A stretch of 64,000 nt of DNA. Origin: an uncultured Actinomycetes bacterium (GTDB lineage Bacteria; Actinomycetota; Acidimicrobiia; Acidimicrobiales; RAAP-2). How positions within the stretch are numbered: the stretch's first letter is position 1; each line of letters starts with the position of its first letter. The notes below the pieces were generated by a model, which saw only the letters and a program-made list of their open reading frames with translations, was not told the origin of the DNA and made no database searches. Position numbers and translations under genes: made by a program. The stretch is from positions 434,001-498,000 of the forward strand of contig CAIYAP010000002.1 in NCBI GenBank assembly GCA_903924205.1. Direction: 5' to 3'. Below are positions 10,978-18,726 of this stretch, piece after piece.

Positions 10978-11691
10978 TCAGCAGGTGGACGAGTGCCCTC
11001 GATAATGACGCCACGCCGCGTCACCACCAAATAATGCGGAGGGACCCGGTTTCACCACAATGTCTTGCATCGCGAAGCTTTCCTCAGTATTCCCGCCACT
11101 CAACCAGATCACGCGAGGGGTAAAGGTGGTTCGCAGTCGACTCAACACCTCGACAACGTCAACGCGCCATTGCACGTCGTCATGTCGTTTCGCGGCGGAC
11201 CCGACCCGGTCATCATAACTCCGTCCATCACAGACCGTGGCGCCGACATCATCGAGTTCCTGGGGAGCGCCGTCCTCAAACAGCGCCACGGCGCAGCTCG
11301 TTCCGAGAGTCACGACTAACTCGCGGCCCTCACCGTCAATGAGATGGAAGCCCGCCAGTTCGGCGTCGTTCACCACGAGACAATCGCGGCCCGTCACTCG
11401 AGAGAGTTCCGCCGCGAGGGGGTAGCGATCCCACTGTGCCCGCGTCGCCGCATCCACTAATCCCCCACGGGCTTCGGGAAGATGAACGGCATCGTGCACC
11501 ACACCTCGTCGAATAACACCGGGGAAGCCAACGACAATGCGCGTGGCGCGGGTCGGCACGATGCGGGCGACAACGTCACCCACGGTGGCCGGTGAGAGGG
11601 GTCGAGGAGTTCGGCGATGACGCCGCTCGCCGGTGATATCGAACCACTTCATCGACGTCGCGCCGATATCGAGGGTGAAGAGATCGCTCAC
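10978..11691 (-). CDS. ROK-family / polyphosphate-glucokinase-like sugar kinase
   Basis: MSDLFTLDIGATSMKWFDI, VVNDAELAGF, VTLGTSCAVALFEDG. Confidence 0.7.
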   Translation of the reverse strand: MSDLFTLDIGATSMKWFDITGERRHRRTPRPLSPATVGDVVARIVPTRATRIVVGFPGVIRRGVVHDAVHLPEARGGLVDAATRAQWDRYPLAAELSRVTGRDCLVVNDAELAGFHLIDGEGRELVVTLGTSCAVALFEDGAPQELDDVGATVCDGRSYDDRVGSAAKRHDDVQWRVDVVEVLSRLRTTFTPRVIWLSGGNTEESFAMQDIVVKPGPSALFGGDAAWRHYRGHSSTC

Positions 11692-12923: not shown

Positions 12924-14048
12924 TTAACGACGCACTCCGCGGGCGCGAAGTCCCGGTCGCCAGCTCCATGGGTGAACTGATACCTCGCGCACCACGTCAT
13001 GGCCCCGCATCATCCACGCTCGACCCGGTGGCGCCATCCGAAGAGACTCACAGACGGCAACGACCTCCGGCACAAATCGTTCGGTGGCGGGATCGGACAA
13101 TCCCGCCAGCACCACTCGACAACGGTGATTGTTCACCACGGTCGCGGCTCTCTCGCCGAAGCGTGCCTGAATTTGCGAAAAGTCTTGAAACACCGTCATC
13201 AAGGTGATGTGCTGGCCCGAGGCCGTGGCGGCCAACTGGTCGAGGTCGTGCAGCGGTGCCAATTGGGCTGCTTCATCGAGCACCACCAACAATGGGGCAT
13301 CACGCCGTGCCGTCTCGAGAGCACGCCGCACCGCGAGTCGGAAAAGTGGCTCGTAGGTCGCCTGGTCGGCGAGGGGCGCGGAGAGATACACCGTCCCCCC
13401 TTGGCGAAGAGCAGGCTGCACATCGACGGCACGTCGGTTAAAGGCCCAGGGGGCGACCATGGCGTCGACAGTGGTCATCACCGCATCGAAGGTGCGCGGC
13501 TCCATGGCGAGGAGGGAGGTCGCTACGCCATCAAGAAGAACATCGTCACTGCGGGCAACCTGTCGCTGCGCAATGGCCACCATGACGTCATCAACGGATA
13601 GACCCCGCCGAGCGGCATCACTCAGAAAAGACGCGAGTGCCTTCGTGGCGAGCGCATTCCAGAACTCACTATCGCCTCGGCCGGCGATCACCAGTTCGCG
13701 CGCGACGCGCAGCGCCACGGTGACATCATCACAGCCGGCGAGAACATCCACCGTGTCGCCACCGTCTCCCGGTGCCAGAGTGACCACCGGACCACGCAGC
13801 GCCCGCCACGGTTGCGTCACTCGGCGAACATCATCTTTCACGCTGAGAACGATCATGGGGCCATCCCACTCCAAAATGGCGGGGATGACAATGCCGCGAG
13901 TCTTGCCCGAGCGCGTCGGGCCGACGATCAATAGTGACTCATCGTGGCCACTTCGAAAACGTCGCCACGGTTGAAAGGGTGCCGTTCCCACCCATTGACC
14001 CTTAGTGCGCACGCATGGCCCCATCAGTATCGGTGTGATCACGACCAC
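12924..14048 (-). CDS. VirD4/TraG-like type IV secretion coupling ATPase
   Basis: LLIVGPTRSGKTRGIVIPAILEWDGPMIVLSVKDD (Walker A), LLVVLDEAAQLAPL (Walker B), TASGQHITLMTVFQDFSQIQARFG. Confidence 0.85.
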   Translation of the reverse strand: MVVITPILMGPCVRTKGQWVGTAPFQPWRRFRSGHDESLLIVGPTRSGKTRGIVIPAILEWDGPMIVLSVKDDVRRVTQPWRALRGPVVTLAPGDGGDTVDVLAGCDDVTVALRVARELVIAGRGDSEFWNALATKALASFLSDAARRGLSVDDVMVAIAQRQVARSDDVLLDGVATSLLAMEPRTFDAVMTTVDAMVAPWAFNRRAVDVQPALRQGGTVYLSAPLADQATYEPLFRLAVRRALETARRDAPLLVVLDEAAQLAPLHDLDQLAATASGQHITLMTVFQDFSQIQARFGERAATVVNNHRCRVVLAGLSDPATERFVPEVVAVCESLRMAPPGRAWMMRGHDVVREVSVHPWSWRPGLRARGVRR

Positions 14049-15078
14049 TCACGGGTCGCCAGGTGACAACCGAGCGAGAGTTTCCGTAGTGAACGAGGGC
14101 GGAGCCGCGAGGCAGGGCACGAATCGTTCGAGCATCTCGTGGCGACAGCTCGACCACGTGACGTAGCTCACGCACGTCATCGTCTCGTTGTCGATGAATG
14201 ACGTGCGTGTCACAGTCGCGGAGCACCGACAGCGCCGCGGGTGATTCGAGGGCAAGGTCCGCGACTCGATGTAGCACCACAATGTGCGAGACGCCGACGG
14301 CTCGCGACAGCTTCCATGAACCACGGAGCCATAGCGTGGCGGTGGCTGATTGCAACACCGCCCACGATTCATCGAGCACGAGATACCCCGCAGTGGCCGG
14401 GTCATACAACTGGGCGTGGGCCACCGAGGTGGCGGCAACCATGACCAGTGGCATGAGGGGCCCGCTCCAGTAGGCGGAGAGATCCACCACTGATATCGCG
14501 TCCGTGACGCGTCGAGGCTCCCCCTCACCGTTGACGACCGCCGCGGCATCTCCATCAAGACAACGGCGCACCGTTCCCCTCAAGGTCGCGTGAGTCACTA
14601 ACTGCCGGGCCGTCGCCACGAAGGGGCGTGGCGCGTGACGAGTAGCGCCGTCGTGCCACGCATCACGTACCGCCATGTATTCCTCGTCGCTGAGACGGTC
14701 ACCACGAACGACGCCGAGCACCATGGCGACGTAGTCCGCTCCGGCGGGTGACCAGGGTGAACACGCATCCCACCACCCGCCGGCGTCGCCGCCATACTCA
14801 CCCTTGGGATCGAGCACGACCACGCGTCGTTGTTGATCACTCGCCCGTCGAACCAACATTTTCACGAAGGTGCTCTTGCCCGTCCCGACGTCACCGAGGA
14901 CTGCGATGTTGGGGTTGGTGACGAGACCGGCGCGATACGCGTCGAAGGGGTCATATACGAAGTCTCGGTGACCCGCCACGGTCCCCAGCCGTTCTCCTCG
15001 AAGTCCCGTGCCTCGATCGCCAGCGGCGAGAGCCAGGTCCGGAAGGTCGCGACCTGCGAGTCGAAGATCACCCCTCAC
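14002..15078 (-). CDS. VirB4/TraC-like ATPase, ATPase half
   Basis: NIAVLGDVGTGKSTFVKMLVRRASDQQRRVVVLDPKGEYG (Walker A), YLVLDESWAVLQ (Walker B); GTG start at 15078, 11 bp overlap with upstream gene. Confidence 0.82.
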   Translation of the reverse strand: MRGDLRLAGRDLPDLALAAGDRGTGLRGERLGTVAGHRDFVYDPFDAYRAGLVTNPNIAVLGDVGTGKSTFVKMLVRRASDQQRRVVVLDPKGEYGGDAGGWWDACSPWSPAGADYVAMVLGVVRGDRLSDEEYMAVRDAWHDGATRHAPRPFVATARQLVTHATLRGTVRRCLDGDAAAVVNGEGEPRRVTDAISVVDLSAYWSGPLMPLVMVAATSVAHAQLYDPATAGYLVLDESWAVLQSATATLWLRGSWKLSRAVGVSHIVVLHRVADLALESPAALSVLRDCDTHVIHRQRDDDVRELRHVVELSPRDARTIRALPRGSALVHYGNSRSVVTWRPVSGRDHTDTDGAMRAH

Positions 15079-16045
15079 GGAGATCTCCCGTACTCTCCGC
15101 CCACCACAGTGCCTGGCGGCCCCACCCACGCTCCAGAACCGCACCGTGAGTCTCGGCCACGGCCAGACACTCATCGAAATGCTGTTCCGCCTCGCGCCTC
15201 GTTCGGGCACCGACCATCACCGTCAGAGTCGCCTCGAGCAGGTCGTCGCCCTCAACGACCGCATCGCGGCGGCGCTGCACCTTGCTCATCCAGCTGTCAT
15301 TGAGGCGACCAGAATCAAACCCCTGTCGCACTCGCCACCGTTCTTCCACGTCCGCTCGATGAGCGAGTCTCGCGACGTCGCGCCGTGCGTCTCGCGACTG
15401 ATGCACGACGAGTTCCAGCACGATGACGAGGTCATGACCCGTGGCGGACAAGGCGTGCCAGAGATCACTGCGAGCATTCACTGCGGTGATTCGACCCACT
15501 ACCCAGACGCCGTCACGACGACGAAGCGCACCCCACGACTCGCGATAGTGACCCGCCCACTCGTATAGGGGTGCGAGATCTCCGCGAGGGTCACTCACCC
15601 ACTCTCGAATCTCGTCACCGAAATGCACTCGCCAGAAGCCGCCAGTCCTCTGAAAGTCCTCGAGGCCGCGATAACGAAGAATGTCCTCACTCTCACCCGA
15701 CAATCCATGACGGGTGATGTCTCGCCAGCGAGTGGATCGCCGACCGCGACAGCACCACACGTCATGTGACAGTCCCACCGTCATCTCGCGCGGGCGAGCG
15801 AGGTAGGAAAGGCCGATCGACAACCACTGGTTGACGGAGAGGGAACGCCAGCGCCACGGCGCCACCAACGCCAGCCCCGCGGCCGTCATCGCGAGGGGCC
15901 AGGCGACCACCCACCACGCCACGGCGGCCACGAGGAGGGCGATGGCCGCTCGGCGAAGATCGCGCGGATGCACCACCCACCACCACTCGTCACGTTCTCG
16001 ACGGGTGAGGGTCTCACTCTTCAATGTGCCACCTCGGCTTGCCAT
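15068..16045 (-). CDS. Membrane-anchored VirB4 N-terminal-like protein (SCO6880-like)
   Basis: Two N-terminal TM segments (AAIALLVAAVAWWVVAWPLAMTAAGLALVAPW) then soluble domain without Walker motifs; operon position directly before the VirB4-like ATPase. Confidence 0.65.
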   Translation of the reverse strand: MASRGGTLKSETLTRRERDEWWWVVHPRDLRRAAIALLVAAVAWWVVAWPLAMTAAGLALVAPWRWRSLSVNQWLSIGLSYLARPREMTVGLSHDVWCCRGRRSTRWRDITRHGLSGESEDILRYRGLEDFQRTGGFWRVHFGDEIREWVSDPRGDLAPLYEWAGHYRESWGALRRRDGVWVVGRITAVNARSDLWHALSATGHDLVIVLELVVHQSRDARRDVARLAHRADVEERWRVRQGFDSGRLNDSWMSKVQRRRDAVVEGDDLLEATLTVMVGARTRREAEQHFDECLAVAETHGAVLERGWGRQALWWAESTGDLREG

Positions 16046-17099
16046 CGGCGTCAAAGCGATATCGGCCCTTATGGGCGCGAGCCTTCCCGATCGGAGCCGG
16101 ACCCGGATCAGTTCCCCGCAGCGGTTCGTCCACCGTGATACCCGGCCACGGGGCAATAGGGTCCGACTCTTCCCCGTCACCACTCAGGTTCATTCGTGGC
16201 GCCAGCGCCCGCCGCCCCGCACCCACGAGAGTGGCCTCCGGGTTGGTCACCTGCCGCATCGCGTGCGCCCGCCACGTGCTGGCGAGATGGTGTGCCGAAG
16301 CGTCCACCAGGGGAATCAGGCGCCACACCACCCACGGAGCCCAGCTGGCGACCAGCAAGGTCACGGCGCCGGCGAGGGCGGCCGTCAATGACGAGCCGTG
16401 CAGTGAGAGCTGCAAGCCCACCGCAATCGTGAGGGCGGTCAGTACTTTCGCGAGCAACAACGCGCCTATCAGTTCCACCAGTCGCAGCAGAGCGCGACGG
16501 CCACTGCTCGTGACCGCCCATGGCGCCAGCAAGGGGACTACGCAGAGAGCGATCGCGAGTGCGAGATCACGGAGGATGATTTCTACCCACAATGACAATG
16601 CGCCGACGACGAGTAGCACGGTGCTCAGCAGTTCTCCCGAACCCGAAAGCGAACTCAGGAGGGCCACCATGGCCGAGCCCAGATGTGAGGGCGATGTCGA
16701 ACTCATCGACAAGACCCAGTGGCTCAATCCATCCACACATGAGCCCACCATCCGAGAGACGCCGGGTGTCATGGCGAGACCGACGGCCACCAGGAGAACC
16801 TGCGCGACCAGAGTCCGGGTGGAATCAGCGAGCCGTCCGGTCGCGCTACGACTCACCACCGCGACGAGAAGGGCCAACAGCGTCATCGCGGGACTGATGG
16901 CGACGAGGCGATTCCACAAGGGGGAGATGGCATCAGCGACCACGGAAAACCGACTCGCGCTATCGAGAACCGAGCCCACCCCGTGCAGTGCCCACGGCAA
17001 GGCACCCGCCAGTAGGGCATCGAGGGAATCAAGTAATGAACTCGAGGCGCTGCCCGCGAGACACGACAGGGGGTGTGTCACGCACGAGAGCACCGACAT
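16014..17099 (-). CDS. VirB6/TrbL-like polytopic membrane protein
   Basis: Multiple TM helices followed by charged cytoplasmic tail; operon context with VirB2/VirB4/VirD4-like genes. Confidence 0.65.
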   Translation of the reverse strand: MSVLSCVTHPLSCLAGSASSSLLDSLDALLAGALPWALHGVGSVLDSASRFSVVADAISPLWNRLVAISPAMTLLALLVAVVSRSATGRLADSTRTLVAQVLLVAVGLAMTPGVSRMVGSCVDGLSHWVLSMSSTSPSHLGSAMVALLSSLSGSGELLSTVLLVVGALSLWVEIILRDLALAIALCVVPLLAPWAVTSSGRRALLRLVELIGALLLAKVLTALTIAVGLQLSLHGSSLTAALAGAVTLLVASWAPWVVWRLIPLVDASAHHLASTWRAHAMRQVTNPEATLVGAGRRALAPRMNLSGDGEESDPIAPWPGITVDEPLRGTDPGPAPIGKARAHKGRYRFDADGKPRWHIEE

Positions 17100-17380
17100 C
17101 AGTGCACTCCACTACCCGTGGTGAACACAAAGTTGATGAGGTGCGGTGCCGCACCCACCAAGAGTCCAGCCAGCAGTCCGGTCACCACCGCCTTTCGACC
17201 CGCCATTGACTGATGCATGTTTTGTGAATGACTCCCGATGGCCCAGAGCACCCCACCGACCACCATCGCGATGACGGCAATCACGAGCGCCCACCCCGCA
17301 ATGCCATTGGCCAGCTGCTGCAACTGCGCGGACCCCGGCAGGAGCGTCACGTTGGGATTAAGGGCAACCGAAAAAATCAT
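17099..17380 (-). CDS. VirB2-like pilin / DUF6112-type small membrane protein
   Basis: LQQLANGIAGWALVIAVIAMVVGGVLWAIGSHSQNMHQSMAGRKAVVTGLLAGLLVGAAPHLINFVF: two TM segments with pilin-like layout. Confidence 0.65.
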   Translation of the reverse strand: MIFSVALNPNVTLLPGSAQLQQLANGIAGWALVIAVIAMVVGGVLWAIGSHSQNMHQSMAGRKAVVTGLLAGLLVGAAPHLINFVFTTGSGVH

Positions 17381-17436
17381 GAGGACTCCTCACTCGAAGG
17401 TCCCTCTCAACGGTCGCGAGGTGGGAGAATGTCGAC

Positions 17437-18726
17437 ATGAGCTTTCTCGCCCTCGCCCACCCGCTCGCTCAGTGGACATCGATCGAGGTGTACGGCGCGG
17501 CCGCCGGTATCGTTGTCGTGAGCTTCCTGCTGGGCATCGCCCTGTGGCGCCGTCGCGGCATGCGATCGGTGGCGCAACGCCTCGAAGCGCTCGGGCATCG
17601 ACTCGGTGACGGTCCGGAGCGTGACTCCGGCAAGGTCGAAGACATGCTGGCCTATCTCGAAGCCATGACCAGCGAAGCCTCGACCCAAGTCAACGAATCC
17701 TCCGCCGACGTCATCCGACTGCGCCGCTCTCTCGACGCTCTCCCTGTCGGACTCGTCCTCTGCGATGAGTCTGGCAACGTGATCTACCGAAACGCCCAGG
17801 CGGACGTTCTCATGACCAGTCGCTACGGCGACGCCATCGCCGCGCAAACGGTGACGGAGTTGCTGACCGAAGGGTGGCAACTCGGCGCCGCGGAGCGAAC
17901 CATCGACCTGTACGGACCACCGCGTCGCACCTTGACCGTACGTGCCGTCGTGATTAACGACACCATTCGTCCCCTCGGCGTGTTGGCGATGATTGAGGAC
18001 ATCTCGGAGCGCCGTCGCCTCGAGGACATTCGCCGTGACTTCATCGCCAACGTGTCGCATGAGTTGAAGACGCCGATGGGGGCCATGGGTCTGTTGGCGG
18101 AGACGTTGCAATTCGAACGTGACCCTCAGGTGGCACAGCGTCTCACGGAGCGGATTCACTCCGAAGCGTTCCGCGTGAATCGCATCATTGAAGACTTGCT
18201 CGACTTGTCGCGCATCGAAAGTGAAGGCTCGCCCACGCGCGAACCGGTGCCCGTCGAGCTCTTCATCGCCGAAGGTACTGATCGCATTCGCACCGCCGCC
18301 GACCAACGCAGTGTCCGCGTCGTCATTGGCAACATCCCCACCGGCATCGTCGTCCTGGGCGACCGACGCCAGCTGGTGAGCGCCATTCACGCCCTGGCGG
18401 AAAACGCGGTGACCTATTCGCCGGTGGGTGGCACGGTGACCGTGTCCGCCGAACGGCGCGAGGCCGACCACGTGAATTTCGAGTCCCCCTGGATTCGCAT
18501 TTCCGTCTCCGACCAAGGTGTGGGAATCCCCGCCAAGGATCTCGAGAGAATTTTTGAACGTTTTTACCGAGTTGACCCGGGCCGGGCCCGTCAAACGGGT
18601 GGAACCGGCCTCGGTCTCTCCATCGTTCGTCACGTGTCGCAAAACCACGGTGGCCTCGTGTCGGTCGCCTCTCGAGAGGGTGAAGGTTCGACCTTCAATC
18701 TCGACCTGCCGCTGAACCTCAATTAA
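17437..18726 (+). CDS. senX3: Sensor histidine kinase, SenX3/PhoR-like
   Basis: N-terminal TM, FIANVSHELKTPMGAMGLLAETL H-box, DQGVGIPAKDLERIFERFYRVD, GGTGLGLSIVRHV. Confidence 0.85.
   Translation: MSFLALAHPLAQWTSIEVYGAAAGIVVVSFLLGIALWRRRGMRSVAQRLEALGHRLGDGPERDSGKVEDMLAYLEAMTSEASTQVNESSADVIRLRRSLDALPVGLVLCDESGNVIYRNAQADVLMTSRYGDAIAAQTVTELLTEGWQLGAAERTIDLYGPPRRTLTVRAVVINDTIRPLGVLAMIEDISERRRLEDIRRDFIANVSHELKTPMGAMGLLAETLQFERDPQVAQRLTERIHSEAFRVNRIIEDLLDLSRIESEGSPTREPVPVELFIAEGTDRIRTAADQRSVRVVIGNIPTGIVVLGDRRQLVSAIHALAENAVTYSPVGGTVTVSAERREADHVNFESPWIRISVSDQGVGIPAKDLERIFERFYRVDPGRARQTGGTGLGLSIVRHVSQNHGGLVSVASREGEGSTFNLDLPLNLN

Follow-up and report, generated by a model that had tools for sequence, protein, structure and literature searches.

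The window analysed here is a stretch of 64,000 nucleotides (G000:C2:434001-498000) from the metagenome-assembled genome (MAG) of an uncultured Actinomycetes bacterium, an assembly of 1.66 Mb in 7 contigs that is 97.5% complete. Within it, five consecutive open reading frames (ORFs) on the minus strand, at positions 12924-17380, form a type IV secretion system (T4SS) operon with a VirB2-like pilin, a VirB6/TrbL protein, a split VirB4 and a VirD4-type ATPase. Likely start codons lie downstream of the longest-ORF starts for the VirB4 N-terminal half (B4N; 16024, TTG), the VirB4 C-terminal half (B4C; 15078, GTG) and the coupling ATPase (VirD4-1; 14012, GTG, or 14024, ATG). Since the plausible starts overlap the stop of the preceding gene throughout, the five genes are read as one operon. 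A preliminary description of this DNA, made from the letters alone, had proposed a five-gene T4SS-like operon, and this has been borne out by Pfam, profile, and AlphaFold2 (AF2) and Foldseek matches and by a gene order conserved in 64 of 64 loci.

The first gene (17099..17380, minus strand) encodes a VirB2-like pilin of the DUF6112 family, 93 aa long, with two hydrophobic helices and a polar loop (GSHSQNMHQSMAGRK). It matches PF19607 (DUF6112) with 34.4 bits at a cut-off of 25, has matches below the cut-off to TrbC/VirB2 (E 5e-4) and T4SS_pilin (E 0.002), and shows 51-66% identity over the genus. The second gene (16014..17099, minus strand) encodes a polytopic membrane protein of 361 aa that is VirB6/TrbL-like. 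The window copy searched alone has no Pfam match; the TrbL/VirB6 family is matched by 6 of 10 orthologues (best E 3e-5). The AF2 model is all-helical, and TrwI/VirB6 accounts for 5 of its 6 best PDB fold matches (E about 0.04). The orthologue and fold matches are supportive of a VirB6 identity rather than conclusive.

The third and fourth genes together encode the VirB4 ATPase. B4N (15068..16024, minus strand) is a SCO6880-family protein of 318 aa with a TTG start and a hydrophobic N-terminus. Its AF2 model has a pLDDT (predicted local distance difference test) of 81.5, and all 14 of its best PDB matches by Foldseek are to R388 VirB4/TrwK, with probability 1.00. The resemblance to SCO6880-type clusters that the preliminary description proposed is confirmed, in that NCBIfam NF042935 (SCO6880_fam) matches 11 of 13 B4N orthologues (best E 1e-14). 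The window B4N alone matches neither this nor any other family and, like the window VirB6, is divergent in sequence. B4C (14002..15078, minus strand) is a RecA-like ATPase half of 358 aa with the Walker A sequence GDVGTGKST. It has matches to AAA_10, TraG P-loop and HerA, and its profile aligns with the VirB4 C-terminal domain structure 4ag5 at E 3e-19. B4N and B4C are taken to be one VirB4 because a single ORF holds both in 6 of 64 relatives.

The last gene (12924..14012, minus strand, if the GTG start is used) encodes VirD4-1, a VirD4/TraG-type coupling ATPase. It is over the Pfam cut-off for T4SS-DNA_transf (PF02534, 73 bits) and TraG-D_C (PF12696, 54.7 bits). Identity over the genus is 41-45%, with invariant Walker A and B motifs, and no N-terminal membrane anchor is seen in the sequence. 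Walker A and B are intact in both B4C and VirD4-1, as had been claimed. When the profiles of the pilin, B4N and VirB6 were searched against PDB sequences, no meaningful match came up. Hidden Markov model and Foldseek comparisons match T4SS components, and of the parts expected in a monoderm FATA-like T4SS the VirB4 ATPase, VirB6-like channel protein and VirD4/TcpA coupling protein are present. The lack of VirB9 and VirB10, which the preliminary description had counted towards repurposing, is to be expected in a bacterium with one membrane and is no evidence of it.

Chromosomal site, descent and selection

Relatives of the operon were collected by whole-genome search, and 84,980 species genomes were scanned as well. 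The scan gave 80 loci, mostly in Acidimicrobiaceae/Actinomycetes MAGs of peat, palsa, fen and lakes. Gene order and strand are constant in the 64 loci that have all five genes, and in 63 of these the operon adjoins senX3-regX3, with senX3 divergent beside the pilin gene. Two sister genera hold the operon at the identical site. Within the genus B4C was found in 92 of 99 genomes, including 56 of the 59 that are at least 90% complete. The T4SS tree largely follows the host tree: over 54 taxa it has 35 of 51 splits in common with a tree of serS-senX3-regX3, where permutation gave a mean of 0.3 and a maximum of 2. The two trees conflict in 3 supported pairs, and branch lengths in the T4SS tree are 2.7-fold greater.

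Purifying selection acts on all five genes. In a comparison with the nearest relative (L053), which is 79-97% identical, the ratio of nonsynonymous to synonymous substitution rates (dN/dS) is 0.018 for the pilin, 0.098 for VirB6, 0.155 for B4N, 0.046 for B4C and 0.069 for VirD4, with dS of 0.8-1.0. Order conserved in 64/64 loci together with such low dN/dS is far beyond chance. An integrative and conjugative element (ICE), a conjugative plasmid or a mobile-element remnant was rejected as an identity for the operon on the basis of the same site in 63/64 loci, the host-like tree (35/51 splits) and dN/dS of 0.02-0.16.

The neighbourhood is a housekeeping one, as the preliminary description had it. 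The divergent neighbour (17437..18726, plus strand) is a senX3/PhoR-like histidine kinase gene that has its intergenic region in common with the pilin gene and marks the fixed site. Downstream, a ROK/polyphosphate-glucokinase-like gene (10978..11691, minus strand) is the neighbour in 60 of 64 loci. Between VirD4-1 and this kinase gene the window has a passenger, a cytochrome P450 gene (11688..12914, minus strand), which is present in 7 of 64 loci, a minority of the genus. A P450 gene also adjoins VirD4 ahead of the ROK kinase at L053, L084, L097, L101, L102, L121, L129 and L138.

Five genomes are missing VirD4-1 between B4C and the ROK gene (L180 in G022, L329 in G019, L330 in G334, L331 in G335 and L333 in G324) and retain the pilin, VirB6, B4N and B4C genes. 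VirD4-1 is therefore dispensable. For one of these genomes, G019, a clean loss of the operon in nature was considered and then withdrawn, since a second contig proved to have VirB6-B4N-B4C-ROK with a different ROK copy. G019 (L179, L329) has two ROK copies, one of them directly beside senX3 without the T4SS operon, which makes it a variant of the lineage or else a mixed assembly. Some MAGs titled 'Acidobacteria' or 'Candidatus Saccharibacteria' (L064, L074, L080, L088, L121, L078) hold the actinobacterial locus and seem to be mislabelled.

An unlinked relaxase and a common upstream element

Is this a T4SS without a relaxase, as the preliminary description supposed? For the window this holds, as the sole TrwC relaxase match of the genome lies outside it, on contig C1 (L032:17184-18185). 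For the genome it does not: a TrwC/MobF relaxase gene and a second VirD4-like gene, VirD4-2, which face each other on that contig, occur genus-wide. Of the 99 genus genomes 96 have the relaxase, among them all 59 that are at least 90% complete, and VirD4-2 is present in 37 of 37 genus genomes of the whole-genome search. The preliminary description had named a relaxase and the remaining T4SS genes just outside the window or elsewhere in the genome, as part of a mobile element, as one finding that would count against it. The relaxase is indeed elsewhere; its place is a fixed chromosomal one, with the order WYL regulator, relaxase, VirD4-2, rnhB and no mobile element in the loci examined.

Judged by its sequence, the unlinked gene is a TrwC/MobF relaxase with HUH and tyrosine residues intact. 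TrwC is over the Pfam cut-off in 6 of 6 members, the profile aligns with TraI/TrwC structures at E 4e-12, and the HUH histidines H135, H146 and H148 and the catalytic Y17 are invariant in six diverse members. The conserved stretches are GxDL..AAPR..S and THGVNR..EPH.HDH. Like the MobF relaxases TrwC and TraI it has an N-terminal tyrosine and an HUH motif whose histidines are spaced as in those enzymes; unlike them it consists of the relaxase domain alone, is chromosomal and is fixed. The gene directly follows that of a tandem-WYL regulator, in which only the WYL domains are confirmed, with no NCBIfam equivalog match, and which would be PafB-PafC-like. Of the two coupling proteins, VirD4-2 more probably works with the relaxase, and the loss of VirD4-1 with the other four operon genes kept is what would be expected if VirD4-2 serves the T4SS machine.

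Two observations concern the surroundings of these genes. Upstream of VirD4-2 (L032 18149-19933, at the contig end of G000:C1) there is a long repeat of low complexity, which reads AFLAGAFLATAF on one strand and is Lys/Ala-rich on the other, and which probably broke the assembly. Some genus members (G297, G299, G285, G296 and others) have several additional VirB4 places as well as TrwC relaxases about 1,200 aa long; these are probably mobile elements, separate from the fixed system.

A 10-bp element conserved over the genus, GCGACCGTTG, lies upstream of the pilin gene (17408..17417, minus strand). It or a close variant is present in the senX3-pilin intergenic region of 58 of 62 loci, 31-46 nt (mostly 31-38) before the start. 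The four loci without it are the divergent relatives L126, L127 and L130, and L106, where the upstream region runs into other sequence with Ns. As CGACCGTTG the element also stands in all 36 relaxase leaders examined, some of which come from overlapping loci, in the stretch from the WYL stop codon to the relaxase start codon; G000 (CGACCTTTG) and L200 (AGACCGTTG) have it with one base changed. By preceding both operon and relaxase it links two unlinked loci, which supports, though does not prove, a common use of the relaxase and the T4SS. Across 7 genomes CGACCGTTGNG occurs 102 times, a 3.5-fold excess over the 29 occurrences of a reversed control; other recurrent sites are before hicA toxins, an AAA_5 ATPase, serine and tyrosine recombinases, XRE regulators, gyrB and topA.

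Just after the element, a hairpin that varies in sequence but is conserved in form covers the ribosome-binding site in 22 distinct relaxase leaders (mean z -2.75). A hairpin of this type was sought in the T4SS leaders and is not there (mean z +0.4). G-U pairs in several of the relaxase-leader hairpins (L186-L215) favour an RNA structure. The hairpin and CGACCGTTG may instead be an origin of transfer (oriT) rather than an mRNA leader.

Two other identities for the element, which may act as a DNA operator or within an RNA leader, were rejected. It has no Rfam match as a known structured RNA. Nor is it an SOS/LexA box, as recA carries a canonical LexA-like box, without CGACCGTTG. Such boxes stand before recA at L325 and L327 (GAACATTTGTTC in G000 and GAACACTTGTTC in G033), so that LexA regulation is likely in the genus. 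A LexA-like box, GAACAGTCGTTC, also precedes the gene of the AAA_5 ATPase (L263, G000:C7:196435), where it stands some 15 nt before CGACCGTTG; this ATPase gene is divergent from a lexA-like gene.

Proposed function and its alternatives

A fixed T4SS with a matching relaxase suggests that the cells transmit or swap their own DNA. On the comparative evidence, we give an even chance to the operon being a conjugation machine that has been domesticated, is inherited vertically and serves to move DNA of the cell itself. Competence bears on what such a machine might be for. A profile for ComEC (PF03772) found nothing in 99 genus genomes and found the protein in 10 of 14 control genomes. All competent bacteria require ComEC (PMC12455585). 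Its absence from 99/99 genomes makes classical natural transformation unlikely in the genus. We also put forward, more tentatively, a fuller proposal, a housekeeping conjugation system: that the operon and the unlinked relaxase and VirD4-2 are one fixed, co-regulated machine that exports the chromosome to kin and replaces transformation, a bacterial counterpart of the archaeal Ced/Ted systems with a relaxase.

In the first of these readings, that of a domesticated conjugation machine, the operon, resident in the chromosome and vertically inherited, would supply the envelope part of the machine: the pilin, the VirB6 channel, the split VirB4 motor and VirD4. The chromosomal MobF relaxase would nick host DNA at a putative oriT and pass the bound single strand to VirD4-2, which would dock onto the VirB4/VirB6 machine. 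Single-stranded DNA would then exit by the channel or by a VirB2-like pilus into a related cell, in a built-in chromosomal exchange like that of Hfr (high frequency of recombination) strains. Because the relaxase and T4SS loci are unlinked, we infer their physical partnership, as we do the use of this T4SS by the relaxase, the direction of export, the cargo of own chromosome and the formation of a pilus.

Several points weigh against this reading. The whole analysis is based on MAG sequence data. No oriT was identified, and the relaxase could instead serve resident mobile elements. The C-terminal helicase domain of a classical MobF protein was not found; the relaxase has the TrwC domain only, in 333 to about 420 aa, with open frames mostly of about 335-450 aa among genus members. 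The leader of the relaxase gene in G000 itself has a weaker variant of the element, GCGACCTTTG, and the regulon that the element marks is a wider one, given its occurrence before hicA, recombinase and AAA genes as well. A search of G000 gave no match to TcpC/VirB8-like PF12642, although VirB8-like proteins diverge strongly and distant ones could escape such a search. There is no wall hydrolase gene among the five of the operon, and no family search was made for a VirB1-like protein.

The main rival to a DNA-exporting machine is contact-dependent protein delivery, in which the T4SS would inject effectors into neighbours, like patescibacterial or bacteria-killing T4SSs, and the relaxase locus would be an unrelated relic. 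VirD4 is known to recruit proteins in several systems, the T4SS operon itself has no relaxase, and its proteins have evolved at about 2.7 times the rate of their neighbours. The chromosomal T4SSs of Patescibacteria, which have no linked relaxases, are thought to serve epibiosis (PMC12102498). However, no effector or immunity gene lies between the five genes in 64 ordered loci, and all 59 near-complete genomes retain the relaxase, which has its catalytic residues conserved and an upstream element in common with the operon. We consider protein delivery unlikely, though a serious contender.

DNA import, with the machine drawing DNA in and the relaxase having some other role, is more doubtful. Without ComEC another uptake route would be needed, and the set of VirB2, VirB6 and VirB4 is that of the archaeal Ced/Ted systems, which are DNA importers (PMC9905601). 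Against this, Ced/Ted have no relaxase, and the ComB system of H. pylori requires ComEC for passage of the inner membrane (PMC12857230). The absence of ComEC thus also disfavours a ComB-type role, one form of the uptake machine that the preliminary description had thought possible. In addition, the pairing of a coupling ATPase with a relaxase fits poorly with import, as these proteins act on the donor side.

We think it similarly doubtful that the fixed T4SS and relaxase are a resident helper that mainly mobilises plasmids, ICEs and integrative and mobilizable elements with a matching oriT. The presence of CGACCGTTG ahead of serine and tyrosine recombinase genes and hicA toxins would fit such a role, as would the extra copies of the T4SS and the TrwC relaxases, about 1,200 aa long, that some genus genomes have. 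Yet the other elements appear to come with relaxases of their own, and service to parasites alone hardly explains genus-wide vertical inheritance and purifying selection. A decaying, functionless remnant of an ancient ICE, which the split VirB4, the missing VirB8-like gene and the occasional loss of VirD4-1 might suggest, is largely refuted and highly improbable given the low dN/dS, the intact Walker motifs, the order and upstream element conserved genus-wide and the presence of the operon in at least two further genera. The earlier idea of a repurposed machine survives, in the form of a domesticated conjugation system, which we prefer to one that lost its conjugation parts.

Known systems and the biology of the genus

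How does the proposed machine compare with systems already known? Nearest to it are the actinobacterial clusters of SCO6880 type, archaeal Ced/Ted and the patescibacterial systems. SCO6880-type clusters (NF042935, DUF6112) likewise have a SCO6880-family VirB4 N-terminal protein and a DUF6112 pilin in tandem with an ATPase half and a VirD4-type ATPase; here, by contrast, there is one fixed chromosomal site, vertical inheritance, five genes only and a relaxase elsewhere. Helicobacter ComB and the T4SS of the gonococcal island are chromosomal T4SSs for the traffic of the cell's own DNA. Those are diderm systems with outer-membrane cores, and ComB has no VirD4 and depends on ComEC (PMC12857230), which is lacking here. 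Ced/Ted, which are domesticated conjugation systems of archaea marked by DNA import on DNA damage, are alike in being chromosomal and minimal, with a VirB2-like pilin, a VirB6-like channel and a VirB4-like ATPase (PMC9905601). The present system differs in being bacterial, in having VirD4 in the operon, and in having VirD4-2 and a relaxase elsewhere, where Ced/Ted have no recognisable relaxase. The patescibacterial T4SSs are also chromosomal and clade-wide, with a monoderm-type VirB4 and a VirB2-like pilin (PMC12102498), but are mostly without a relaxase and tied to epibiosis, whereas a relaxase is near-universal in this genus.

On the usual view a conjugation machine serves the mobile element by which it is carried. 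Here a fixed minimal T4SS and a fixed relaxase co-occur in one genus; in the literature searched, which had most subscription papers outside its scope, we found no report of a core-genome relaxase with a minimal T4SS in a bacterial genus. A 2025 review states that VirB2 subunits are not in Gram-positive T4SSs except those of Patescibacteria (PMC12857230), a statement to which the VirB2-like pilin of this actinobacterial core system is relevant. If the proposal is true, the relaxase and minimal T4SS, as core genes of the genus, would be a DNA-exchange apparatus owned by the cell, in a lineage unable to use ComEC. These uncultured bacteria of peat and fresh water should then recombine in dependence on a relaxase site, from which the recombination may radiate outward.

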